The notes below the pieces were generated by a model. That model saw only the letters and a program-made list of their open reading frames with translations, did not search any database and was not told the origin of the DNA. 45,784 bases of DNA, taken from assembly GCA_903955385.1 (NCBI GenBank), contig CAJBNH010000140.1:1-45784 (forward strand), given 5' to 3'. A program made the position numbers and the translations under genes. Positions 4,430-24,744 of this stretch are shown here, piece after piece. The DNA comes from an uncultured Myxococcales bacterium. Its GTDB lineage: Bacteria; Myxococcota_A; UBA9042. Position 1 is the first letter of the stretch, and the number at the start of each line of letters is the position of its first letter.

Positions 4430-6646
4430 TTACCGCACCCACAGCGTGCCTTGAACGCACTGCGTGGCGGCCTGCCAGCCCGCCATGCCGGCACCGCATT
4501 GGCCAGCCGAGCTATAGACGCCCCAGCCCCAAGCCGAGTCGGTGGTGCCGCAGTCGTTCTCGTTGTTGCCGACCAGGCCGAAGCGAGCGAACGAGTACGA
4601 GCCGCCGCCGCCGCTGGTGGCTGCGTTGTTCAGTCCGGAGACGTTGCAGTACGGCTGGCTGCCATCGTCGTAGCCGATCAGGCTGACCATCGTCGCGCGG
4701 CTGGGTCCGCTGCCGACAAACGCGCCCCCCATCACGGATTGCAGCGCCTTGGCAGACCCAGCGTAGGTGAATACGGTGCAGGGCGACGTCCCCTTGCAGC
4801 CGCGCACCTGGGTGGCCGGTACGGTGTTGAAGGTGGCGAACTTGGCGTTGGCGTTCACGGTGGGCACCAAGCTGCCGGCAGCCTCGTCGTTGAAGGTCTT
4901 GGTGTCGGTCCACGCCGCGGCGTCGTACGCCAGACCGTTGTCATTCTTCATGCGCATCGCCAGCGTCCAGCCGCCGCCATCGGCCGTCATGTCGCACCAG
5001 GCTTGGAAAGCGTCGGTCGCCGCTCCACCGTTCGTGTCGATCCAGTAGGCGCCGTCCTTGACGGTCGTGCCCTCGATCTTGGCCACGGCCAGGACGTTGG
5101 CGCACGAAGTGCCCGGCCGGGTCTTGGTGAAGCCAAGCGACGCAATGCAGGTCGAGCTGCAGCCATCGCCGTTCGCAGAGTTGCCGTCGTCGCATTCTTC
5201 CTTGCCGACCAGCTTGCCGTCGCCGCAGACCGACGTGCAGGTGGCGCTGCACCCATCGCCGTTCGTGTTGTTGCCGTCGTCGCACTCCTCGGACGGGTCG
5301 AGGATGCCGTTGCCGCACGTGTCCGAGATGCTCTTCCACACGCCGCCCGCGCAGTAGCGAATCGCCTGCGTCTTGACGTCGAAGTAGATCGATCCGGCCG
5401 TGGTGACATCGCAGGCCACTGGCGGCGCGTCGGCGTTCTTGAGCTTGAGCGCACCGTTGACGCCAACCTTGGCTGAGGCGAGCACCTGAATGTTCACGCT
5501 CCACGACTTCAGCTGCCCGTCCTTGCCGTTGTTCAGGAAGGCGGTGTCGATGACCTCCAAGTACCACTTGCCCTTGGCGTTCTTGCCGACCCACGTCGTC
5601 AGATCGCCGGAGACCGTCTTGGTCAGCGTCGGCCAGGTCGTCTTGACCGCTGTGCCCTTGGCGGACTTGCTCCACAGCACAAACTTGGTGCCGGTGGGGT
5701 CGATGGCGTTGATGATCAGGTTGGTGGTGTCGCTGTTGACCACTTCCGCAGAGATCGTCAGGGCTTGCGCAGTGCCAAAGTCGGGCACGTCGATCATGCT
5801 GCTGATGCCCACGGGGTTGTTGTCGGTGATGTCGACCACCGTCGTACTGGCCGCCACCTCGTCGAACTGGTTGTAGAGCAGGCCGTTCGAGATCTCGTCC
5901 AGACCGTCCTTGGGCAGGTCCGCCGCCGTAAACGCCGCCGACACGCAGTCGTAAGTGCCGTCGGCCTTGATGCCCTTCATCACCAGCCCCGTGCCGCAAG
6001 CCATGCCGACTTTGGGCAACGTAGGCAGGCCATCGAGGTCCAGATAACCGCCGCTCATCGCGACAGCCGCCAGGCTTGCCGACTTGGCATAGGCCGACAG
6101 GTCTGCGGACTTGGCGTACGCGCTGAGGTCCGGCGTCCCCGACAGGTCGGCATACGCCCCTGACTTCGCTACCTTGGACAGGTCCGCGGTCTTGGCGAAC
6201 GCCTCGGTCACGTCGGCGCCCAGCTGCTGCAGGGTCACGCACCCGCTGCAGTCGATGCCCTCCGACACCGCAGCGCGCAGGGCGTACGGCACGGACTGCA
6301 GCGCCTTGCGCCCAAGCTCAGGCTCGCTCGCCACTTGAAGGCCCAGCCACGCCTCGGGCAGTCCGGCCAGCAAGGTCGCGGACAACGGCGTCTTGGTGCC
6401 CAGTGCATAGGCGAACTGACCGCTCTTGACGTCGACGTTGATCGGTCCCTCCGTCCACGCCGCCTCACCGCCACTCTCAGCCGGGTACAGCTTGAACGTC
6501 AGGGGGTACGTGCCATCCGCCGCAGGTCCGCCGCCCGTCGTGGTCAGCAGACCCTCGACCTGGGTGGTGACGGGCACCTTGGCAAACGTCGAGGAGGCCA
6601 GAAGCGTCAGCGCCGCCAGAACAGCGAGTGAAAGCAGGCGTGCCAT
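4430..6646 (-). CDS. Secreted modular protein: tail-fibre-like repeats, P-domain, DUF4215, fibrinogen-like C-terminus
   Basis: 738 residues. A Sec signal (about 1-22, ending SSTFA) is followed by a beta domain containing GGGPAADGTYPLTFKLY. About 165-235 carries repeats of the form GxYADLxGxPxLxxYAK. A proprotein-convertase P-domain-like region (about 270-390; ITDNNPVGISSMIDVPDFG, GKWYLEVIDTAFLNNGKDG) comes next, then a short Cys...Cys...Trp module (411-439). Two DUF4215 cysteine repeats follow (444-497; EECDDGNNTNGDGCSATC type). The C-terminus from about 514 is fibrinogen-like, with GAYWIDTNGG, WCDMTADGGGWTLAMRMKND and a late Gly/Trp-rich stretch. The open frame runs far upstream, but only this ATG gives a signal peptide and a GGAG site. 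It is probably exported to the surface as an adhesin or glycan binder (inference). It is a paralogue of the next upstream gene. Confidence 0.88.
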   Translation of the reverse strand: MARLLSLAVLAALTLLASSTFAKVPVTTQVEGLLTTTGGGPAADGTYPLTFKLYPAESGGEAAWTEGPINVDVKSGQFAYALGTKTPLSATLLAGLPEAWLGLQVASEPELGRKALQSVPYALRAAVSEGIDCSGCVTLQQLGADVTEAFAKTADLSKVAKSGAYADLSGTPDLSAYAKSADLSAYAKSASLAAVAMSGGYLDLDGLPTLPKVGMACGTGLVMKGIKADGTYDCVSAAFTAADLPKDGLDEISNGLLYNQFDEVAASTTVVDITDNNPVGISSMIDVPDFGTAQALTISAEVVNSDTTNLIINAIDPTGTKFVLWSKSAKGTAVKTTWPTLTKTVSGDLTTWVGKNAKGKWYLEVIDTAFLNNGKDGQLKSWSVNIQVLASAKVGVNGALKLKNADAPPVACDVTTAGSIYFDVKTQAIRYCAGGVWKSISDTCGNGILDPSEECDDGNNTNGDGCSATCTSVCGDGKLVGKEECDDGNSANGDGCSSTCIASLGFTKTRPGTSCANVLAVAKIEGTTVKDGAYWIDTNGGAATDAFQAWCDMTADGGGWTLAMRMKNDNGLAYDAAAWTDTKTFNDEAAGSLVPTVNANAKFATFNTVPATQVRGCKGTSPCTVFTYAGSAKALQSVMGGAFVGSGPSRATMVSLIGYDDGSQPYCNVSGLNNAATSGGGGSYSFARFGLVGNNENDCGTTDSAWGWGVYSSAGQCGAGMAGWQAATQCVQGTLWVR

Positions 6647-6699
6647 GGTCGCAAGCTCCGAGAATGGGGGGTGAGTCGCACGAACCTTGGGAACGCCCA

Positions 6700-6728
6700 A
6701 GCGTACGCCTTGCACTCGCCACAGGCAA
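6700..6728 (-). promoter_or_regulatory. Putative promoter for the fibrinogen-like protein gene
   Basis: Minus strand TTGCCT (6723-6728), 17-bp spacer, TACGCT (6700-6705), about 50 bp upstream of the ATG. The -10 resembles the TACGNT boxes found before three other genes here. Confidence 0.4.
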
Positions 6729-6765
6729 AGTGAGCTGAGCGACTCGATTCGGCCGAAAGCCAGGG

Positions 6766-9180
6766 CTAGGGCACGATCTTGATCGTCACCTTGCCGACGG
6801 TCGCGTTGGCGCCCTCGGAGTTGCTGGGGTCGGTGCCGGAGTTGAAGGAACCGCCGCCGCCGCCCCAGCCAGACGGACCGGTGTCGTGGCCCGCGCCGCC
6901 GCCGGAATAGCCGCCACCGCCGCCCGAGCCCTGGTTCTGGTTGTGCATGCCGCCGCCGCCGCCGCCGAAGCCGCCGTCCGCGCACAGATTCGCCCCGTTG
7001 TCCTGGCGTACGCCACCCGAGCCGCCGTTGCGGAAGGCATACCCGGACTTGCCGGAATTGCCCGCGACCTGCAGACCGTCGGTCAGGAAGCCGCCGCCGG
7101 CGAATCCTCCCACCGAGCTGGCGTTGCGCGCCCCGCCGTTGCCGTTGATGCCGCCAGCGTAGGCACTGGCGGACCCCGAGGTCGTGACGTTGCCCGGAGC
7201 CCCGACGCCGGTGTAGCTGCTGCTGCGACCGCCGCCGCCGCCACCTGCGACCAACAGCGCGACCGCGGTGCCGTAGTTTGCGCCGACCGCGACGAAAGAA
7301 CCGCCGCCGCCGCCTGAGGACTGACTGTCGCCGCCCATCTGGCCCACGATGATGTTGAGGACCGCGTCCTTGGTCAGCTGGAAGTTGCCCCGCATCCGCG
7401 CGCCCGCTCCGCCAGCATTGCCGGGTGCGTTGCCCCCGCGAGCTCCGAAGGCTTCGATCTGGTACGTTGCGGTGTAGGGCACCGGCCACAGCTGTACGCC
7501 CGAACCCGCGATGGTGACCTTGCCGTTCAAGTCCGTCCCGGCATACGCCGTGTTGCACGCGGCTTGCGAAGGTCCGGAAACGCCCGTTGCCGAGCAGGTG
7601 GAGAAGGTGACGCTGACGGGCGGCGCGCAGCCGGGGTCGCAGCCGTCGCCGACGATGTTGTTGCCGTCGTCGCAACTCTCGCCAAAGTCGATGATCTTGT
7701 CGCCGCACTTGGGCTTCACACAAGTCGTCCGGCACTTGTCCGGCACGTCGGCGTTGGCGTTGCCGGCGTCGCACTCCTCGGGAGTCTCAACGACGCCGTT
7801 GCCGCAGCTGCGCATCATGAGGACGGACCAGACCCCGACGCACACGTTCAGCTCGTTGGTCTTGCTGTTGAGGTACTCGTAGCCGTAGTGCGCCGTGTCG
7901 CAGGCAAACGGAGGGCCGGCAGAGACGGGCAGCTTCACGCCACCGGTCAGCAAGAGCGCGCCCTTCGCCTCGACCTTGGTACTCGAGAGAGTCTCCAAGG
8001 AGACGCTGAAGACCACGATGGCGCCGTCTGCGGAATTGTTCAGGAATTTACCATCGATCGCCTCAATGCGCCACTTGCCCTTGGGGTTCTGCCCGATCCA
8101 GGTCGTCAGGTCGCCGGTGAGCGTCTTGGTGGGCGCGGGGAAGCTGGTCTTGAGGGTGTCCCCTGCCTTGCCAGTCTTGTCGTGCAGCACATAGGAGGTC
8201 CCGGCGGGGTCGAACAGGGTCACCTTCACGGTACTGAGGTCGGAGTTGGTCACCTCGACGTTGACGGCGATCTTGCGGACCAGGCCGACGTCGGGCACCA
8301 GGATTTCGTCCGAGGCCCCCAGCGGGTTGTTGTCCGGGATCGCGACCGGCGCCTTGGTGCTGGCCGTGGTGTCCACGATCTCGTTCGTCAGCAGGTTGTT
8401 CGAGACCTCGTTCAATCCGTCGGGCGGCAGCGCGCTGAACCCGACGCAGTCGTACGAGCCGTCGGCCTTCAAGCCCTGCATGACCAGACCGGTGCCGCAC
8501 GCCTTGCCCAGCTCTGGGGCTCCCAGCAGATCTGCGTACTTGCCAGTCGTGGCGACCTTGGCGAGGTCGGCCCACTTGGCATACGCGACAAGCGATGGCG
8601 CGCCCTCGAGGTCGGCATAGGCACCCGACAGGGCCACGTCGGCCAAAGCGGAGAACTTGGCGTATTGGGAGAAGTCCGGTGCTCCGACCAGATCGGCGTA
8701 CTGTCCGGTTCCCGCGACCTTGGCGAGAGCCTTGGGGTCGATCATGTCGGCCGTGACGCATCCCGAACAGGCCAGCGACTCGGCGGCCGCCGCGCGCCAG
8801 GCGAAGGGCACCGCCTGCAGCGGCGCGCGCGACAGCTCCGGCTCCATGGCGATCCGGATGCCCAACAGCGGAGCCTTCAGGTTCGCCAATGTCTGTGCAG
8901 AGATGGGCGTCAGGCTGCCCAAGCTGTGCGAGAACTGTCCGTTCTTCACCCCGACGGCGATCGACGTCTCCTGCCATGCCGCCGCCGGGCTGTCGGCCTG
9001 TGCGTACAGCGAGAACGTCATCGTGTACTCGCCGTCAGCCGCGGGGCCGCCGCCAGTGGCCGTCACGAAGCCTTCGATGGCCGTGGTCACTGGGATCGCG
9101 TGCGCCACAGACACGGCGAACGGAACAGCCAGACAGGCGGCGAGCAGACACACCTGTAGCAGGAACTGACGGTGAAGCAT
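6766..9180 (-). CDS. Secreted modular protein: P-domain, DUF4215 and ALK/LTK-like glycine-rich C-terminal domain
   Basis: 804 residues. A Sec signal (about 1-28, ending SVAHA) leads into the same N-terminal architecture as the neighbouring paralogue: GGGPAADGEYTMTFSLY, repeats of GxYADLxGAPxLxxYAK (about 165-245), a P-domain-like region (about 280-397; IPDNNPLGASDEILVP), a Cys...Cys...Trp module (424-452) and two DUF4215 repeats (about 457-517). From about 522 it differs completely. FSTCSATGVSGPSQAACNTAY, VQLWPVPYTATYQIEAFGA, LNIIVGQMGG and many GGGGGG blocks match the order of signatures I recall for the glycine-rich domain of ALK/LTK receptors (Pfam Gly_rich type). The ATG at 9180 has GGGGGGA 5 bases upstream and gives the signal peptide; the longer frame does not. 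A surface or extracellular location is inferred. Confidence 0.88.
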   Translation of the reverse strand: MLHRQFLLQVCLLAACLAVPFAVSVAHAIPVTTAIEGFVTATGGGPAADGEYTMTFSLYAQADSPAAAWQETSIAVGVKNGQFSHSLGSLTPISAQTLANLKAPLLGIRIAMEPELSRAPLQAVPFAWRAAAAESLACSGCVTADMIDPKALAKVAGTGQYADLVGAPDFSQYAKFSALADVALSGAYADLEGAPSLVAYAKWADLAKVATTGKYADLLGAPELGKACGTGLVMQGLKADGSYDCVGFSALPPDGLNEVSNNLLTNEIVDTTASTKAPVAIPDNNPLGASDEILVPDVGLVRKIAVNVEVTNSDLSTVKVTLFDPAGTSYVLHDKTGKAGDTLKTSFPAPTKTLTGDLTTWIGQNPKGKWRIEAIDGKFLNNSADGAIVVFSVSLETLSSTKVEAKGALLLTGGVKLPVSAGPPFACDTAHYGYEYLNSKTNELNVCVGVWSVLMMRSCGNGVVETPEECDAGNANADVPDKCRTTCVKPKCGDKIIDFGESCDDGNNIVGDGCDPGCAPPVSVTFSTCSATGVSGPSQAACNTAYAGTDLNGKVTIAGSGVQLWPVPYTATYQIEAFGARGGNAPGNAGGAGARMRGNFQLTKDAVLNIIVGQMGGDSQSSGGGGGSFVAVGANYGTAVALLVAGGGGGGRSSSYTGVGAPGNVTTSGSASAYAGGINGNGGARNASSVGGFAGGGFLTDGLQVAGNSGKSGYAFRNGGSGGVRQDNGANLCADGGFGGGGGGMHNQNQGSGGGGGYSGGGAGHDTGPSGWGGGGGSFNSGTDPSNSEGANATVGKVTIKIVP

Positions 9181-9229
9181 TTGGATCCCCCCCTGGGCAG
9201 CTGCGATGGCCAAGCCGCCCAAGCCATGA

Positions 9230-9258
9230 AACGTACCCGCATGGCGAGTCCACCGCAA
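9230..9258 (-). promoter_or_regulatory. Putative promoter for the glycine-rich-domain protein gene
   Basis: Minus strand TTGCGG (9253-9258), 17-bp spacer, TACGTT (9230-9235). The predicted start is about 43 bp upstream of the ATG at 9180. Confidence 0.45.
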
Positions 9259-9289
9259 CCAAGAAGGTGTTGTCTGCGTCCGGCCTTGC

Positions 9290-9394
9290 CGAATTCGCCA
9301 CATGCTCAACCTCGAGAGCACCTTCACGTACGAAGGCACTGACGAGATCGACTCGCTGGTCATCGGCCGTGCCGTTACGGGCAAGCCGGCGTGC
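9290..9394 (+). pseudogene. Relic of an acyl-CoA dehydrogenase (glutaryl-CoA dehydrogenase-like) C-terminus
   Basis: About 35 codons read IRHMLNLEST...YEGTDEIDSLVIGRAVTGKPA. This is the C-terminal signature of glutaryl-CoA dehydrogenase-type acyl-CoA dehydrogenases (I recall IRHMLNLE, NTYEGTHDIH and ILGRAITG from family members). The Glu in YEGT is the region of the catalytic base in that subfamily. Upstream the frame meets a TGA within 25 codons and shows no dehydrogenase sequence, so about 90% of the gene is missing. Downstream the frame runs on as Pro/His/Arg-rich sequence without the normal stop. It now overlaps the promoter region of the divergent secreted-protein gene. I call it a decayed fragment, not a gene. 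Confidence 0.68.
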
Positions 9395-9711
9395 TGGCCC
9401 CGCCACTCGGCGACCAAGCCCCCTGCTCACCACCGACACTTGACGCTGTGTGCTGCCGACCCACAACCGGGCCGTGGGCGACGGTGCCGTGCGCTCGGCC
9501 GCAAGACGTCGCTCGACCGGTCGTTGGTCGCGGAAGGGGCACAAAAGCGCCAAAACCCGGCACGTGCGACAAGCGTGAGGATGGTTCCTGTAGCCCGCTT
9601 TGGGCGCCGCCGTGACTTGACCGACGGTCCCCCTTGACGCAGCATCCCCTGCCGGTGTGCTGCTCTGGAACGCGTTGGCCGTTCGGGCGGCCTGCACCAC
9701 GCGGAGCACTG
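9395..9711. other. Intergenic gap, no gene seen
   Basis: About 317 bp between the dehydrogenase relic and the MBOAT gene. Open frames here have shadow-like Arg/Pro-rich composition. A small palindrome GACCGACGGTC lies near 9618-9628. No confident promoter or terminator was found. Confidence 0.4.
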
Positions 9712-16047: not shown

Positions 16048-19000
16048 CTACTGCAGCCCCGGCCGCCACAGCACCCAGGTCGCGGCGACGGGATCCCAGG
16101 CCAGCACGAAGAGTTGCCCGATCGCGTCGACAGCAGCCTGCACCCCCGTCGCGTTGGCCACCGGCAGCACCGGGCAGTTGGCCAACAGCGCGCCCAGCTT
16201 GCAGAACCGCCAGCCGTCGGTCGTCTGGACCTGCACGCCCCAGGGGCTCGGTTCCGCGGGGCCGTCGACCTCTTGGCGCACCAGCGTCATCGCCGCGTAG
16301 GTCGCCGGAAACGCCGCTTGGACCTTGCCGGCACCGACCGACAGCAGGCCGTAGGTGCCATCTGCCGCGGTGGCCAACACCCACGCCGTGCCCTGCGCAT
16401 CGACGTGGAAGGCCGGCGGCAGGTCGGCCCAACCCGTCGTCGCCACCTCCAACGTGCCGCTGTTCCAGCGCATCAGCGACCACAGGCCGTCGCTGCCGTG
16501 GACCCGCAGCCAGGGCACGCCGGTCGAGTCGTCGTAAACCGCAAAGCGCTGGGCCAGGTTGCCATTCACGTCGACCGGGTCGGCGGCGTAGCGGAACCGG
16601 CGCACCGGCGTCTTGTCGGTCGCGTTCAGGTCGGCCAGCTTGACGACCTGGCCCGGGGCCTTCAGGTGGTACATGCCGATCATGTCGCCGCGTACCGACA
16701 ACAGCACCTGGCCGCCGTGGTGGACGAAGGCCTCGGCCCGATCGTCGTCGGTCTGGACGCCGCCCGCCAGCGACACCACGCCCGAGAGCTGCAGGGTGGG
16801 CGCCTGGCCGTTCTTCGCGGCAAACAGCTCGGTCGGCTTGCCGTCTGGCCGGTACAGGAACCAGGCGGTGCCATCCGCCGCCATGGTGGCGTATTCGTCG
16901 CCCAGCTCGGCCGCGTTGCCGACGGGCAGGGGGCACGTGAAGTTCATCTGCGCGCCGTTGGTGGCCATGATCTTCCACATCGGGCTCGGGGTAGACGCGT
17001 ACGTCAGGTAGAACAGCGTGCCGTCGGGCGACGCCCCGTAACGGTAGGTCGACGCAGACGATCCCAGGACCGCGCCGCCGAACCCCGGGGTCAGCACCGG
17101 CACGCCCGACGCCGTGTCGACGTGATAGACCACCTGAGGCTTGCTCGGCGGATAGTGCAGGACGTACCGCTGCTGGCCGGCCCTTGCAAAGCCCACCCAG
17201 GTCGACGCCGCCAGATTCAGCGACACCGGGTCGTCGGCCGGCGACTTCCACCACACCATGTCGTACTTGCCGGCCGGCAGCCGACCCGTGATCCATGCCC
17301 CGTCGGCGCCGATGCTGCGCACGACCGTCTGGTCGCCACGCACGAAGTTCAATGCCTGCGTGGCCTTGCCGTCGGCCTTGCCGTCCTTGATCCACGCCAC
17401 CTGGACCGGTGCGGTGTTGGCGGCCGTCTGGCTGGCGATCAGGCGGTCCAGGCTGTCAGGCACGGCCAGCAGGTTGCCCACCGCCCCGGAGAGCAGCGGC
17501 GCGGTCGCCCCGTCTGGGCGTGCGCTGAAGGCCGCGAACAGATTCGTACCGGCGTACGTGAACACCAGGGACTTGCCCGACACGAACTGGCCCTTCAGCT
17601 CGGTGAACGCGGCGGGCTTCGAAGTCCAGGTCGCCGTGTCGCCGGCCACGCGTACGAACTGCACCGGCGTCGAGCCCGAGAATTGGAACAGGCTGGATCC
17701 GTCGCCGAGAGCCCACGCAAAGCCCTGATCCGGCGAGGCATTCAACGCGATCTCGGTCGCCTTTCCGTCGGCCACCCGCGACCAGCTCGCCTTGCCCTGC
17801 GACCAGTAGTGCGAGCCCAACCAGGCGGCGCCGTCGCCCGAGACGTGCAGGCTGGTCTGGGCAAGCTCCTTGCTGTTCGGCGCGAGCGCCCCCTGAACGA
17901 CGGTCACCCGCTCGGCACCCTCGAGCACGAAGAACTTCTGGCGTGCGCAATCGGGCTTGCCGGTCGTGCCGCACTCGCCCCACTCGGGTCCAAAGCTGGC
18001 GGCAAAGGTGGTGGCCCGCAGGTCGACGTGCGCCTCGGTCCCCTGGTTCAGCGTCCCCGTGGGCAGCGCCTCCAGGTCGTCGCACGCGGTACCCTTGCCG
18101 TCCTTGTCCAGGTCGGTTTGCAGGGTGTTGCCCGTGGTCGCGCAGTTGTCGCAGACGTTGCCGACCTTGTCGCCGTCGCCGTCTGCCTGGTCGATGTTCT
18201 TGGCATTCGGGCAGTTGTCCAGCGCCCCGCAGGCGCCGTCCTGGTCCGGGTCCGGGCCGTTGCAGGTGTCGCATGCATCGCCCACCTTGTCGGCATCCGC
18301 GTCGGCCTGGGTGGGATTCGCCTTGCTGGGGCAGTTGTCGACGCCGTCGCTGGCGCCATCCGCGTCGGTGTCGGCCTTCTTGGGGTCGGTGCCCAGGGCG
18401 GGTTCGTCGGCATTCTTCACGCCGTCGCCGTCCAGATCGGCATCGGCCGGGTCGGCAGTCCCGTCGGCGTCCTCGTCGTTCAGCACGCGAATCGTCAGCT
18501 TGGCCACCGTGGTTGCGCCCTTCGAGTCCTTGACCTGCAGCGTCACGGAGCAGGTGTGGGGCGTATCGAGCTTGGCCAGCAATGCCCCGGGCTTGGACGT
18601 CAGCTCGACCGCGGCCGCGTCGAAGGTCGCAAAGGGGCAGTCGCTGACGTCCGCAGACCACGTGATCGGGTCGTCGTCGGGGTCGGACGCGATCGGCGAG
18701 AACACGTCGGTCGTCCCTTCGGTGATGTCGTAGAAGTCGGGCAGGGGCGCGAAGACAGGCGACTGATTGGGTGGGCAGGTCTGCTTGTGCGAGCAGGTTC
18801 CCGTCGCCACGTCGCAAGCGTCGGTCGTGCAGGCGTTCTGGTCGTTGCAGTCCTTGGCGCTGCCGGCGATGCACGAGCCGTTGCCACACGCGTCGCTGAG
18901 GGTGCAACCGTTGCCATCGTCGCAGGCGCCGACCGCCGGCGCGTGGACGCAACCCATTCCGGGGTCACAGGTATCGGTCGTGCACGTGTTCGCGTCGTCG

Positions 19001-19581
19001 CAGGAGGTGGGGCACGGCGAGACGGTGTCGGGCGCGGTGTCCTGATCGGGCGCAATGTCCGGTTCGGGTGTGGTGTCAGGTGTGGTGTCCGGGTCAGGTG
19101 TGGCGTCAGGTTTGGCGTCGGGCGCCGCGTCAGGGTCCACCGCCGCGTCGCCCAGCGTGTCCGTCACTGCATCGGGGTCGGCCACGCTGTCCGTGTCTGG
19201 GTCGGGCGCCACCTCCGACAGGTCGAGATCGGGGGCGCCATCGATGGGATCCTGCAGGTCCGGTCCCAGTTCCGCGTCCGGGGGCCCCGTGTCTACCTCG
19301 GCGTCCGCGTCTGGAGGGGCGTCCGGGACCATGTCCGCAAGCACGTCGGGGTCGGGGGTGACGTCCTGACCGACCGTGTCGGCCGTGCCGTCCTGCGCCA
19401 GATCCGGCGCGCCAGACTGGTCGTCGTCTGCCAGCTGCTGGTCGCTCTGGTTGCCTGCATCCAGGCCGTCGTCGCCGCCCCCTCCCTCGCAGGCCAGGGG
19501 CACGCAAACCAGAGCTGCGAACGCCAGATGCCTCGCCCATGCGATGGCGGACGAACCCACGCCGAACCACGATCCTCGCAT
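16048..19581 (-). CDS. Very large secreted lipoprotein: Asp-rich linker, Cys-rich repeats, TSP3 calcium repeats, propeller-like C-terminus
   Basis: 1177 residues. The N-terminal signal ends in VPLAC (Cys31), an imperfect lipobox. Residues about 35-187 are a low-complexity linker of Asp, Pro, Thr and Ala (PDPDTTPDTTPEPD style). About 189-265 is Cys-rich, with CDDANTCTTDTC and CDDGNGCTLSDAC units. About 266-370 resembles a cadherin/Ig-like domain (PDDDPITWSADV). About 370-505 holds thrombospondin type 3 calcium repeats (DNCPSKANPTQADADADKVG, GDGDKVGNVCDNC). The remaining 670 residues look like a beta-propeller of Trp/Asp/Gly-rich blades. The ATG at 19581 follows AGGGGGG at 5 bases; a TTG seven codons upstream is the alternative. 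The likely site is the outer-membrane surface, with calcium-stiffened modules. The function is unknown. Confidence 0.85.
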   Translation of the reverse strand: MRGSWFGVGSSAIAWARHLAFAALVCVPLACEGGGGDDGLDAGNQSDQQLADDDQSGAPDLAQDGTADTVGQDVTPDPDVLADMVPDAPPDADAEVDTGPPDAELGPDLQDPIDGAPDLDLSEVAPDPDTDSVADPDAVTDTLGDAAVDPDAAPDAKPDATPDPDTTPDTTPEPDIAPDQDTAPDTVSPCPTSCDDANTCTTDTCDPGMGCVHAPAVGACDDGNGCTLSDACGNGSCIAGSAKDCNDQNACTTDACDVATGTCSHKQTCPPNQSPVFAPLPDFYDITEGTTDVFSPIASDPDDDPITWSADVSDCPFATFDAAAVELTSKPGALLAKLDTPHTCSVTLQVKDSKGATTVAKLTIRVLNDEDADGTADPADADLDGDGVKNADEPALGTDPKKADTDADGASDGVDNCPSKANPTQADADADKVGDACDTCNGPDPDQDGACGALDNCPNAKNIDQADGDGDKVGNVCDNCATTGNTLQTDLDKDGKGTACDDLEALPTGTLNQGTEAHVDLRATTFAASFGPEWGECGTTGKPDCARQKFFVLEGAERVTVVQGALAPNSKELAQTSLHVSGDGAAWLGSHYWSQGKASWSRVADGKATEIALNASPDQGFAWALGDGSSLFQFSGSTPVQFVRVAGDTATWTSKPAAFTELKGQFVSGKSLVFTYAGTNLFAAFSARPDGATAPLLSGAVGNLLAVPDSLDRLIASQTAANTAPVQVAWIKDGKADGKATQALNFVRGDQTVVRSIGADGAWITGRLPAGKYDMVWWKSPADDPVSLNLAASTWVGFARAGQQRYVLHYPPSKPQVVYHVDTASGVPVLTPGFGGAVLGSSASTYRYGASPDGTLFYLTYASTPSPMWKIMATNGAQMNFTCPLPVGNAAELGDEYATMAADGTAWFLYRPDGKPTELFAAKNGQAPTLQLSGVVSLAGGVQTDDDRAEAFVHHGGQVLLSVRGDMIGMYHLKAPGQVVKLADLNATDKTPVRRFRYAADPVDVNGNLAQRFAVYDDSTGVPWLRVHGSDGLWSLMRWNSGTLEVATTGWADLPPAFHVDAQGTAWVLATAADGTYGLLSVGAGKVQAAFPATYAAMTLVRQEVDGPAEPSPWGVQVQTTDGWRFCKLGALLANCPVLPVANATGVQAAVDAIGQLFVLAWDPVAATWVLWRPGLQ

Positions 19582-19780
19582 ACTGCCCCCCTTCAGACCC
19601 AAGGGCGAGAGATCTTGGGCAAGGGTCCGTTCTACCCTGTGCGCGGCGTGGGAGTCGAGGAGTTGATCGCGTCGGCGCGCGAAGGTGGCGGCCGTGCCGA
19701 CCAGGCGAACGGGGAGATGACGGGTTGGTCAGCGGACCGGCGAACTCGGTCTGGAAGCGGCTGTGCTGACCGGCCGAGTT
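19582..19780. other. Intergenic gap upstream of the large lipoprotein gene
   Basis: 199 bp that must hold the promoter for the 1177-residue lipoprotein. I found only a weak -10-like TAGAAC on the minus strand near 19632-19637, without a convincing -35. Confidence 0.35.
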
Positions 19781-20352
19781 TCACGAGTGGTACGACGTGC
19801 TGTTGTTCGAGTAGTACTGCAAGAAGAAGGTATCGCCGTTCTTGAACGGCCATACTTGGTGGTTCTCGAGCGTCTGCCACCCGTTGTGGCCGTCGTACTC
19901 GTGGGTGTAGATGAACCCGCTGCCGTTCTTGAAGTACTGTTGGTGGCAGTAGCCGCTGGCCAGACAGATGGCATCCCCGCGAATCCGATAGTGGCCGGAG
20001 ACCTTGAGGGTGATCGTGCCGTTGGCGTTGACGTCGAAGCAGTCACCGGCGGCGTTGAATTCCGTTTGATTCAGGCAATACGTGGCCCGGCCCGCGCCGC
20101 CCGACGGGCTCCCCCCCCCGACCACAGGATCGGCTGAGAAATGGCGACGGTCCAAATGGACGCGGTGGAGCCATTCGCGTGCTGGTTCTTGTTGCAGACC
20201 TGCAGGCCGACGGTGGCGTTCCAGCGCAAGGTGCCGAACTTGCTGGCGTCGCAAGCCGACGTGTCGGCCGGAACCTTGAAGCCGCCGCGGTGCCGGTGCC
20301 GCGACTGCGGGTCCGAATACGTTGTTGCTTCTGCCGCGGGGCCGCCTTTCAT
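19781..20352 (-). pseudogene. Broken secreted/surface protein gene with frameshift at a nine-C tract
   Basis: Two minus-strand frames make one protein. The first reads from about 20352 through CDASKFGTLRWNATVGLQVC and SIWTVAISQPILWSGGG. The second continues SPSGGAGRATYCLNQTEFNA to YYSNNSTSYHS and stops at 19781. They meet at a run of nine C (nine G on the coding strand) at 20111-20119. With nine, translation ends early at 20071; seven or ten would restore the full frame. The C-terminal half (ITLKVSGHYRIRG, FKNGDTFFLQYYSN) looks like a C1q/TNF-type jelly-roll (tentative). The N-terminal half carries the same Cys...Cys module as the two paralogues at 4430-9180. No signal peptide is visible, and the start region overlaps a degenerate repeat, so the 5' end may also be lost. 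Confidence 0.65.
20111..20119. repeat. Nine-base C homopolymer inside a coding region
   Basis: CCCCCCCCC sits exactly at the junction of the two frames of the broken surface-protein gene. It could be a slipped-strand phase-variation tract, a fixed mutation or a sequencing or assembly error; the sequence alone does not decide. Confidence 0.8.
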
Positions 20353-20755
20353 CGCTCCATGTATTCGCGCGGGTAAGAGGTCCGAATCCCGGGGGGTCGA
20401 CGGTGGCGCGTGGCGGGCTCGCTGGTGTGCGTTTGGCAAGTGCGCGGCCCTCCAGGGGGACTGGTGCCGGGGGACTTCGACGACGTGGACGTGGCCCGAG
20501 GGAGGCAGGCGCTTCGAGCGCGCTCCACGGCTGCGGCAGGTGGACGTCGAGGCGTCGCTGGTCGACGCCATCGGGCGGATCGAACGGCAACTCGAGCGGC
20601 ACGTGGGGCGCGAGGACGACGACCGAGACCGGCTTGCAGAGCGCGATACGGCGCTTGCGGCGTTGCTGAAGGCGGTGATCCTGAGCCGGCACGCTTCGGA
20701 GCGGGAGCCGGGCGCGCGGCGACCGGCACCGCAGTCGGCGCCGTCTCGGCGCTGA
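20315..20755 (+). repeat. Degenerate repeated segment, copy 1 (coding relic)
   Basis: Two stretches here match copy 2 near 24392-24590. One is GTTGTTGCT...GCCGCG...CTCCATG at 20320-20360. The other, at 20505-20570, is a coding-like block translating as GGRRFERAPRLRQVDVEA on the plus strand. After that block the frame continues in charged helical sequence (AIGRIERQLERHVGREDDDRD) to a stop at 20755. Just before the block a frameshift separates it from a matching DFDDVDVA segment. No start codon with a ribosome site was found. I read it as remains of an unidentified gene family. Confidence 0.5.
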
Positions 20756-20930
20756 CGGACTGTTTCCCCGCAAGTCCAGTGGATTGCGACGCCAGGCGCG
20801 CGCGGCCGGCGCGGTTTCGGTACAAGCCTCTCTCTTTCTCCGACTCTGGAGCGGTCGCGTCCGCCATCGGATTGCGGCGCGGCCGCACACCCTGCCGGTG
20901 GATTCGTCCACCCCCAAGGACCGCGCCGCC
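20756..20930. other. Leader region of the DUF7282-like lipoprotein gene
   Basis: 175 bp on the plus side that must contain the promoter of the gene at 20931. A TACAAG at 20822-20827 could be a -10, but no matching -35 is seen. Confidence 0.3.
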
Positions 20931-23900
20931 ATGCCGAAGCCACTTCCTGCGACGACCGCCGCCGCGCGCAGCCGCACGCTCGCGCCCATGCTCGCGCCCA
21001 TGCTCGCGCTGGTGCTGACCCTGTCGTGGGCCGCCGGCTGCGGCGGCGGCGAGGCCAGCACCGACCCGACCGCGCCCCCGGACACCGCGCAAGGCGTTGA
21101 CGACGCGCAGGATGCCGCCACTGCCGACATGGGCGGCGACGGCGCGGCCGATGCTGCCGCCGACGCCGCAGCCGACACCGCGGCCGACACGGCGCCCGAC
21201 GCCACCGAAGATGCCGCCTCGGACGTCGCCGAAGACGTGGCCGTCGACGCAAGTCCCGACGCCACGGGCGACACCGACGCGGGCACCGACGCCGCCGCCG
21301 ACGCCGAAGCCGCGCCCCTGGGCGTGCTGGTCGTCGAGGATCAGGTCGTGGCCGCGCCGTACCAGACCGTCGTCATCAAGGTGGCGACGCTGCCGCCCGG
21401 CTTCAGCTCGCCCGGCAAGGTCCGGATCCTGAACGACAACGCCGGCCTGCCAGGTACGCTGGCCGGCGAGGCGGCGGTTCCCCAAAGCAAGGTGAACGAG
21501 GATCTGGCGGTCGTCCTGAAGGCCCCCGTGGTCGCCGAGCAACGGTTCCACGTCGAGTTGCTGACGCCCGACGGAAAGCCGGTACCAGGCGCCGACGGCG
21601 CGCCGCTCGTCGCGACGTTCAAGGCCACGGGCGACACGGTCGAGCCGGTGCTGACGTTGACCAGCCAGAGCTTGCCCGCCAACGACTTGCAGACGCTGTC
21701 GGTCAGCTTCGTGCGCGTGCCGAATCGCTTCACGGTCGGCATCTGGCTCGCGGTGTACGCCGACGCCGACGGCAAGATCGGTGCGCTGCTCGGCAAGCAG
21801 AAGTTCCTGGCCGGCGACCACAAGGACGGCACCGTGCCGCTGACCAGCAACCTGACCAAGGGCCAGGTGCTGCATGCCGTGTTGCGCGAGGGCGCGCCTG
21901 GAACCGGCAGCTGGGCCCTGAACTCGCCGGTGCTGAAGGACTTTGCCGGCCAGGTGGTGGAATCCGAGTTCACCGTCGACAGCGAGGCGTTCCACCCCGT
22001 GCTCGAGATCGAGGACCAGACCCTTGCCGACCCCAAGAAGGTCAAGGTCAAGCGCGTGGTCGTGCCCAAGGAGCACTTCGGCGGCTGGCTGGCGCTCTAC
22101 GCGGACGACGCCGGGAAGCCCGGAACGCTGGTCGGCAAGCTGTACTACACGACCGGCACCAAGCTCGACCAGACGGTCAGCCTGACCGTGCCGCAGCAGG
22201 GCGAGCAGACCCTGCACGCCGTGCTGTACGCCGGCCAGAAGTGGGACGACGCGGGCAACAACATCGTGATGAAGGCGCCGGGCGGCGGCGAGATGCGCCT
22301 GCAGTTCAAGGTGGGCGCCCAGTCATTGAGCTACATCGTCGCCAAGCCCTACACCACCGACAACCCGCGCCATGTCATGGTCACGCGGGCGTATTCGTAC
22401 GACAAGCCCGCCTGGGTGATCCTGGCGCGCGACGACAACGGCAAGCCGGGGATGGAACTGGCGCGCAAGAAGATCCTGCCCAAGTTCGCCGGCAACGTGC
22501 ACCTGTGGTCGCTGACCGGCGACTTCCTGCAGAGCGGCACCGTCGCCGAGTACCTGCAGGGCAAGCCCGGCACGTTCCGCCGCTACGTCAAGGGCGACGA
22601 GAAGCTGCACGTGCTCCTGCACGAGGACTTCCCGAGCGACAACGCGTTCACCTACTCGCCCGGTGGCAGCGAGGACGTGCCGGTGCTCGACGCCAACGGC
22701 AAGGCGGTCACCGCGCTGCTCGACGTCACGGTCAAGGCGTCGGTGCAGAACCTGCAGAAGGAGAGCCCGCGCTACTACCTGCCGTGCCCGCTGAGCCAGC
22801 ACATCTCGAACGCCACCAAGCTGCCGGTGGACTGCCGCTGCCACGTCGACATCGTCGGCCTGGACTTCCCCGAGTGCAAAGCCGACATCGCCGACTTCCT
22901 GGGGATGCAGTACGGCGACGGACCGCGCGCGCGCACGCACAACTTCGGCGGGTTCCACAGCGGCTTTGCCGAGCCGACCGAGCTGATCGCGCTGATGACC
23001 TGGAAGGACCACCAGACCGTGTGGCCCGAGAACAGCGTGACCATCGACGTGGGCGCGGTGATGGGCATCGACGTGCAGAACCGCAACCGCCGCGTCATCG
23101 GCGGTCGCTACCGGGACAGCGGCGGCGTCATCCAGACCATCGGCACGGGGCCGGTGCTGTCGTACCCGTTCGAGGTGCAGAAGGGCCCGGACGGCAAGTA
23201 CTATGTCGCCAGCTACGCGTACGTCCGCATCGGCGCCAGTCTGGTGCCGACGGTCGACGTCATCCGCATGGACCCGGCGACCGGCGACCGCACCTTCGTG
23301 TGGCGCAGCAATCACCTGGGCATCAACTTGGACAAGCAGGCCAACCCGTACGGCCACTGCGGCAACGGGCGCACCGAGAAGTACGGATACGAGTCCGTAC
23401 AGATTGGGCGCAAGGCCTTCGGCATCGACGACCAGGGCAATTTCTATTTCAGTTACGCGCACAACGGCAACACGCCGACCTCAGACGGCATCGGCATCCT
23501 CAAGGTCGGTGCCGACGGCAAGACCTGCGACTTCGTGACGCGCACCAAGGTGGGCGCCGAGAACGTGCTGTACAAGGGCCAGACGATCGGCAAGGGCTAC
23601 GAACCGCAGGCCGGACCCTACAAGGGGATGCTGGTCAAGGGCGGCAAGCTCTACACGTCCACCGAGCTGAACGACGAGCTGGTCGAGGTGGACATCGCCA
23701 CCGGCGACCGCAAGCTGCTGCACAAAGAGGGCGTGAACGACAACAACACCGGCAGCACCGGCACCCACGTGCTGTGGGACCCCTACCGCAGCCTGATCTG
23801 GCAGGCGGGCCTGTCGGGGGCGACGCTGATGTACGACCCGGCCAAGGGCACGACCGAGCCGCTGTGGTGTGCGCAGAACGACCGCAACTACATGGATATC

Positions 23901-24059
23901 GCCTGCCTGAAGCCGGCCGCCTGGGGCAACAACGGCATGCCGCTCGAGCGGGGCATGTGGATGCACCCGAGCGACAAGGAGTATCTGTTCGTCGTCAACT
24001 ACACGATGATCCAGCGTGTGCACCTGACCAGCGGAACCAGCGAGATCTTCTCGTATTGA
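20931..24059 (+). CDS. Large lipoprotein with DUF7282-like repeats and a propeller-like C-terminus
   Basis: 1042 residues. The signal peptide ends in WAAGC, a good lipobox with Cys37. Residues about 42-125 are an Ala/Asp linker built from units like AADAAADAAADTAADTAPD. From about 128 to 605 there are four or five repeats of roughly 110-130 residues. Each opens like VLVVEDQVV, VLTLTSQSL, VLEIEDQTL or LSYIVAKPY, has a central W/Y-aliphatic strand (GGWLALYADDAGKPGTLVGK), and closes LHAVLY/LHVLLH. This pattern matches the archaeal and bacterial DUF7282 domain as I recall it. The last 430 residues (FEVQKGPDGKYYVASYAYVR, DVIRMDPATGDRTFVWRSN) resemble an SMP-30/NHL-like propeller. The ATG follows AAGGA. 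It is probably anchored at the outer membrane; the function is unknown. Confidence 0.83.
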   Translation: MPKPLPATTAAARSRTLAPMLAPMLALVLTLSWAAGCGGGEASTDPTAPPDTAQGVDDAQDAATADMGGDGAADAAADAAADTAADTAPDATEDAASDVAEDVAVDASPDATGDTDAGTDAAADAEAAPLGVLVVEDQVVAAPYQTVVIKVATLPPGFSSPGKVRILNDNAGLPGTLAGEAAVPQSKVNEDLAVVLKAPVVAEQRFHVELLTPDGKPVPGADGAPLVATFKATGDTVEPVLTLTSQSLPANDLQTLSVSFVRVPNRFTVGIWLAVYADADGKIGALLGKQKFLAGDHKDGTVPLTSNLTKGQVLHAVLREGAPGTGSWALNSPVLKDFAGQVVESEFTVDSEAFHPVLEIEDQTLADPKKVKVKRVVVPKEHFGGWLALYADDAGKPGTLVGKLYYTTGTKLDQTVSLTVPQQGEQTLHAVLYAGQKWDDAGNNIVMKAPGGGEMRLQFKVGAQSLSYIVAKPYTTDNPRHVMVTRAYSYDKPAWVILARDDNGKPGMELARKKILPKFAGNVHLWSLTGDFLQSGTVAEYLQGKPGTFRRYVKGDEKLHVLLHEDFPSDNAFTYSPGGSEDVPVLDANGKAVTALLDVTVKASVQNLQKESPRYYLPCPLSQHISNATKLPVDCRCHVDIVGLDFPECKADIADFLGMQYGDGPRARTHNFGGFHSGFAEPTELIALMTWKDHQTVWPENSVTIDVGAVMGIDVQNRNRRVIGGRYRDSGGVIQTIGTGPVLSYPFEVQKGPDGKYYVASYAYVRIGASLVPTVDVIRMDPATGDRTFVWRSNHLGINLDKQANPYGHCGNGRTEKYGYESVQIGRKAFGIDDQGNFYFSYAHNGNTPTSDGIGILKVGADGKTCDFVTRTKVGAENVLYKGQTIGKGYEPQAGPYKGMLVKGGKLYTSTELNDELVEVDIATGDRKLLHKEGVNDNNTGSTGTHVLWDPYRSLIWQAGLSGATLMYDPAKGTTEPLWCAQNDRNYMDIACLKPAAWGNNGMPLERGMWMHPSDKEYLFVVNYTMIQRVHLTSGTSEIFSY

Positions 24060-24744
24060 TGGTGGTTAGGGTTAGGCGGGGCAGGTAGTGCCAGATGCCA
24101 GTTCGCGTACCCCCGCGACCAAGCATCGGTGGTGGCTGACGGCCCGGGCGGGCGCGCTGATGCAACTGCCTCGATGTCCAGCAGTTCGATACTACGGGTG
24201 TTTTGCTCCCAATGCTCGGGATCGGCCGCAAGTGGTCAGGGCGGGTGCTCAGGCGCCCTGTCGCCGCAACAAGCCGCGGGACCTGGACCTGGCGGAGCTG
24301 ACGGAACTGGCGCGGAGCGTCCCCGAAGGCGCGCAGGAGCGCATCGAGCGGTACGTGGTTCAAGAGGTCGAACGTCGTACTTCTACAGTGTTGTTGCTGC
24401 CGCGCCGCCCTGATTCCGCCTCCATGGTTTCGGCGGCGGGCAGCTTGCCGGGCACAGGCGTTACGCGCGGCGTTCGCCATCGACATCGAGAAGCGCACCG
24501 TGTGCGGCGGCCGGCGGTTCGAGCGGGCGCCGAGGATGCGGCAGGTGGACGTCGTGGCGATCCGGGGTCCGCCTACGGAGTTGTACCCGGCTGAGCCGAC
24601 CCCTGAGGATGAGGGGGACGGCTGGGACCGGGTCGACGGGGACTGGGCTGCATAGGCCAGGGCAGGTCCGGGGCGTCGGGGGCGCTGGTGCGGGACTTGA
24701 CGGTTGGGGGGCTTGCGCCTTCTGCCCGTCGAACCTCGCCAGAC
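24060..24744. other. Gene-poor gap with coding relics
   Basis: About 685 bp between two lipoprotein genes. It contains a plus-strand coding-like fragment (about 24262-24390) reading RDLDLAELTELARSVPEGAQ then ERIERYVVQEVERR, followed by copy 2 of the degenerate repeat. No intact gene is convincing. I do not recognise the fragment's family. Confidence 0.5.
24392..24655 (+). repeat. Degenerate repeated segment, copy 2 (coding relic)
   Basis: It matches copy 1 over GTTGTTGCTGCCGCG...CTCCATGG and over the block translating as GGRRFERAPRMRQVDVVA (24507-24560). Here the preceding sequence AFAIDIEKRTVC is in the same frame as the block, which shows that copy 1 carries a frameshift. The frame ends with an acidic tail (PTPEDEGDGWDRVDGDWAA) and a TAG at about 24653-24655. 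No good start is visible. Confidence 0.5.

Follow-up and report, generated by a model that had tools for sequence, protein, structure and literature searches.

Nine C residues at a frame break lie in what is very probably the pseudogene remnant of a modular secreted protein

A run of nine C residues stands at a break in the reading frame of a putative surface-protein gene in the 45,784-nucleotide stretch of an uncultured Myxococcales genome analysed here (the window), and the question that this raises is whether the run is a slipped-strand switch, a mark of gene decay or a sequencing error, three possibilities that an earlier note had set side by side. Our analysis upholds decay and does not support phase variation. 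Very probably the locus is a pseudogene of which only an orphaned module remains, C1q-like and once the C-terminal part of a modular secreted protein, and we describe it as gene decay and not as an on/off switch because its lesions exist independently of the tract.

The observation that raised the question is correct. Minus-strand coding runs in one frame from about position 20286 to the tract and in another from 20107 to 19784, with the shift falling at the nine C themselves (Table 1). That different frames are coding on either side, as had been claimed, is borne out by a codon model whose training set was 60 genes of the same genome (55 members of the family described below, with 5 long ORFs of the window), in which frame −0 scores 0.64 bits per codon above the tract and frame −1 scores 0.42 below it. 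The frame arithmetic, by which the two frames would rejoin if the tract had seven or ten residues, is also right. As in contingency loci, the long run sits inside the reading frame and at the frame change. By itself the length of the tract is unremarkable in this G+C-rich window, where 2 C/G runs of at least 8 bases are observed against a shuffled mean of 4.31 (84 of 100 shuffles reach 2); its coincidence with the frame break is unusual.

Table 1. Positions of the relic, its lesions and the adjoining repeats in the window.
Feature	Position	Strand	Basis or remark
Tract of nine C (nine G on the coding strand) where the frame breaks	20111..20119	-	Sequence and codon model
Relic, first piece: opening part of the C-terminal module, GGFKVPADTSACDASKFGTLRW...ILWSGG; scaffold and signal peptide absent	20113..20286	-	Frame reading, alignment
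Relic, second piece: other frame, C1q-like module, 108 codons, PSGGAGRATYCLNQTEF...TSYHS	19784..20107	-	Profile searches
Premature TGA	19781..19783	-	18 relatives: W (12), G (4), I (1), A (1)
Homology beyond the TGA, NSAGQHSRFQTEFAGPLTN	19724..19780	-	Comparison with relatives
61-bp dispersed sequence abutting the relic, in the scaffold's place	20286..20346	-	90% identical copy at G000:C11:3309-3370
Second dispersed repeat, fragment	20425..20496	.	88% copies at C125, C145
Third dispersed repeat, fragment	20495..20720	.	Partial copies

Across the genome there are 46 distinct C/G tracts of at least nine bases (63 overlapping matches), fewer than the roughly 404 expected under independent bases, and 45 of these were examined, the one at a contig end (C89:13-21) being left out. 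According to the codon model, neither flank is coding at 29 tracts and one side only at 10, while the frame runs unbroken through 4 and changes on one strand at 2. For comparison, 528 control positions were taken around the 44 other tracts; 26% of them lack a coding signal on both sides and 0.4% show a change of frame on one strand, so the long tracts lie mostly outside genes, as judged by a classifier with fixed thresholds that weakly biased genes could escape. The longest of the 45, with fifteen bases (L067, G000:C134:20368-20382), has a coding signal on neither side. Since the second frame-changing tract (L070) sits between two genes, the tract of the window is by this model the only one of the 45 that lies within a gene at a frame change. 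This singular position at a real frame break, along with the arithmetic rejoining of the two frames, is what speaks for phase variation, in which the length of the tract would toggle a surface protein on and off.

The state of the rest of the gene argues against such a switch and for decay. About 185 final codons are all that survives, with no signal peptide and, among ORFs of the window of at least 60 aa at E ≤ 1e-4, no match to the scaffold at the relic; in all 18 module-bearing relatives a scaffold of about 409 residues precedes the module. The TGA downstream of the tract is read as a stop here because TGA terminates 18 of 55 closed paralogues, and 19 further homologous codons follow it. 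Homology ends at the motif GPLTN with the frame continuing, whereas 14 of the 18 relatives terminate within a few residues; the native stop has probably been lost, and we say only probably because the other four (L009, L012, L016 and L022) likewise run on past that point, two of them into further domains. A cysteine shared by all 18 relatives is absent at the tract, in an alignment where the frame break was written as X and the aligner placed this X opposite the cysteine. The relic is therefore homologous to intact genes and carries several disabling changes, as expected of a pseudogene. Its strong codon bias and most of its conserved residues resemble those of a live gene and count against decay; since 20 of 23 near-invariant columns are retained together with this bias, the decay is probably recent.

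Comparison with relatives leads to the same reading of the tract. The second piece of the relic has 19 matching places, spread over 10 of 51 relatives, and 18 of the places were analysed, the remaining one (L023) being a partial match whose ORF also starts with scaffold sequence. Scaffold and module share one ORF in 18 of 18, according to a scaffold model derived from the paralogues in the relic's own genome, with 6 of the 18 seen in part at contig ends and 16 of the ORFs extending past the fetched stretch. Whole open frames of 614-954 aa are seen in 12, and the other 6 reach 248-553 aa with a partial scaffold before stopping at the contig end. Where the start is visible, a signal-peptide-like stretch comes first (by eye), and no orphan module was found among the relatives analysed. 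When named genomes were searched, the 108-residue piece gave no confirmed relative, and the protein of a single relative gave five loci in two MAGs.

No run longer than 5 bases occurs at the position of the tract in the 16 relatives read (the position was not located in L015 and L022), and the longest run per ORF in the 55 closed, full-scaffold paralogues is only 4 to 7 bases. The relic resembles the poly-G/C contingency loci of Campylobacter and others in its long G/C tract, its frame break and its surface-protein ancestry, and differs from them in that the remaining gene is not intact and no tract is kept in these relatives or paralogues. An altered tract length would yield no secreted protein, and phase variation is therefore unsupported; we regard slipped-strand switching at this locus as extremely improbable.

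Homopolymers are prone to miscounts. Both the tract and the junction at 20286 come from a draft assembly of 201 contigs, and repeats adjoin the relic, all of which favours a reading in which the tract or the whole junction has been miscalled. Such a reading would require the frame break, the TGA and the 5' junction each to be an error of its own, and merging of the two copies of the 61-bp sequence is unlikely because they differ by about 10%. The tract length may be miscounted, but its correction would not revive the gene and leaves the verdict of decay intact. As an explanation of the locus, a sequencing or assembly error seems improbable to us.

The sequence found where the scaffold should be is dispersed in the genome. 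The copy of the 61-bp sequence on contig C11 stands beside unrelated genes, and no match longer than 34 bases appears among those listed for 20 other genomes, with at most 40 candidates scored in each. Folded as single-stranded DNA, the sequence and its C11 copy show nothing unusual (z of 0.39 and 1.17), and the two ORFs of the window that flank it match no Pfam family. Three different dispersed-repeat fragments stand side by side in this one intergenic stretch. Partial copies of the third occur on C39, C91, C30, C93, C133 (twice), C148, C64 and C77 and in the window at 24506-24559; these copies are those among the matches listed, drawn in part from the best 40 of 98 candidates. Contig C133 carries part of the third repeat at each end together with an MmeI-like gene, and no transposase was seen on it. 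The relic itself is flanked by two divergent genes (16048-19602, minus strand; 20784-24059, plus strand). Judged by eye, each has a lipoprotein-like start; one shows Dicty_CTDC/TSP3-type matches and the other three DUF7282 stretches.

The identity of the intact proteins was approached with profile searches. The Pfam family P_proprotein is matched by 7 of 9 scaffold proteins (E up to 0.01), 6 of them above the curated cut-off, and the two misses both come from relatives. For the module, C1q matches are found in 8 of 15 members (E up to 0.1) and BclA_C matches in 5 of 15, and C1q-related chains of the PDB match the module profile with an E of 0.003, so that module members weakly match the C-terminal domains of C1q and BclA. 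The piece in the window differs in scoring below the Pfam cut-off for C1q (PF00386; 15.5 against 23.7 bits), and the module may be called C1q-like on the weak resemblance of these profiles. The guess that a surface protein was involved is supported through the relatives, by their signal-peptide-like start, P-domain scaffold and C1q-like module.

The family from which the relic derives is large. The whole protein of a relative has 82 matches in the relic's own genome (including the two pieces of the relic, and with some genes counted twice), and the scaffold alone has at least 79; 55 closed ORFs cover at least 350 of the 409 scaffold positions and carry C-terminal parts of 123-389 residues. Among the matches listed, with at most 75 candidates scored per genome, 14 same-family relatives have 1 to 77 scaffold matches and 8 same-class ones have 0 to 7. 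The family joins a constant scaffold of about 409 residues to differing tails (Fibrinogen_C, DUF4215 and others), and the window holds members at 5393-6604 and 7927-9120, both on the minus strand (ORFs 4430-7774 and 6766-9417). Another member, L136 (G000:C25:20126-21412), is split by an in-frame TGA and is a second decaying or miscalled member. No paper on a family that keeps its scaffold and changes its tail in this way was found in a search that judged titles and the starts of abstracts and had most subscription journals outside its reach.

Among the 1485 pairs formed by the 55 paralogues, 3 share a block of at least 300 bases at 85% identity or more. One of these, L099/L123, was not counted, both ORFs being overlapping DNA of the window. 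In the other two, L091/L120 (C5) and L093 (C117)/L106 (C125), the scaffold DNA agrees at 87% and 90% along about 1.2 kb, and this identity ceases within 2 residues of the scaffold end; the tails agree at 25% and 30%, where shuffling gives means of 24% and 25% and maxima of 29%. A neighbouring pair in a related genome (L018/L023, G007:C82) is 98.9% identical over 1217 bp, a block that ends about 3 residues beyond the scaffold; from residue 451 on, identity falls to 21-34% per 50-residue window. In another related genome L005/L015 (G015:C439) agree at 94% over 643 bp, as far as about 11 residues beyond the scaffold, and their tails are still related, since the module is 64% identical.

The first residue of the relic lies −2 to 19 residues past the scaffold end, as measured at 16 loci (in L017 and L020 an extra hit of the scaffold model within the module prevents the measurement), and the relic is thus cut at about the boundary where paralogue pairs change their tails. 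The coincidence speaks for a rearrangement at the module boundary as the initial lesion, though a single relic cannot prove it. Ordinary bacterial pseudogenes that are 5'-truncated remnants of paralogues likewise show a missing 5' part, a frame break, a premature stop and repeats at the junction; the relic differs from them, as far as one case tells, in being cut at a module boundary and not at random.

The position of the cut, together with the near-identical scaffolds with changed tails in pairs of this and two related genomes, also suits a role as a silent donor cassette, in which the orphan module would serve expressed members as a reservoir for recombination, in the manner of the C-terminal tips of polymorphic proteins. 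The orphan tips of Rhs and CdiA proteins offer such a parallel, with a constant N-terminal and a varying C-terminal part and C-terminal pieces that lack the part for delivery; the present case differs in its P-domain scaffold and C1q-like module. The module of the relic is, however, already broken and has no second genomic copy (its second piece finds no other match in its own genome at E up to 0.1), and no other orphan module was seen among the loci examined in part of its own genome or among the relatives analysed. Apparent orphan modules outside the tabulated ORFs look, judged from the table, like parts of known family genes in overlapping stretches. We consider a donor function unlikely. 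A tentative suggestion, also rather unlikely in our view, is that the relic is a cast-off of active tail exchange at a fixed boundary among at least 55 secreted proteins, with orphans as by-products or donors.

Decay of an orphaned module remains the reading we prefer, and its course may be pictured as follows. A rearrangement at or near the boundary between scaffold and module would have parted the module from its scaffold and promoter, and with selection gone, point and slippage changes would have piled up, the nine-base run among them. This order of events is an inference.

The analysis removes a false candidate for phase variation, and it illustrates that finding a tract where a frame breaks is not sufficient unless the rest of the gene is checked. 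The interest of the locus lies more in its family of origin than in the tract. That family is large, consists of secreted proteins, and retains one scaffold while its tails are changed.
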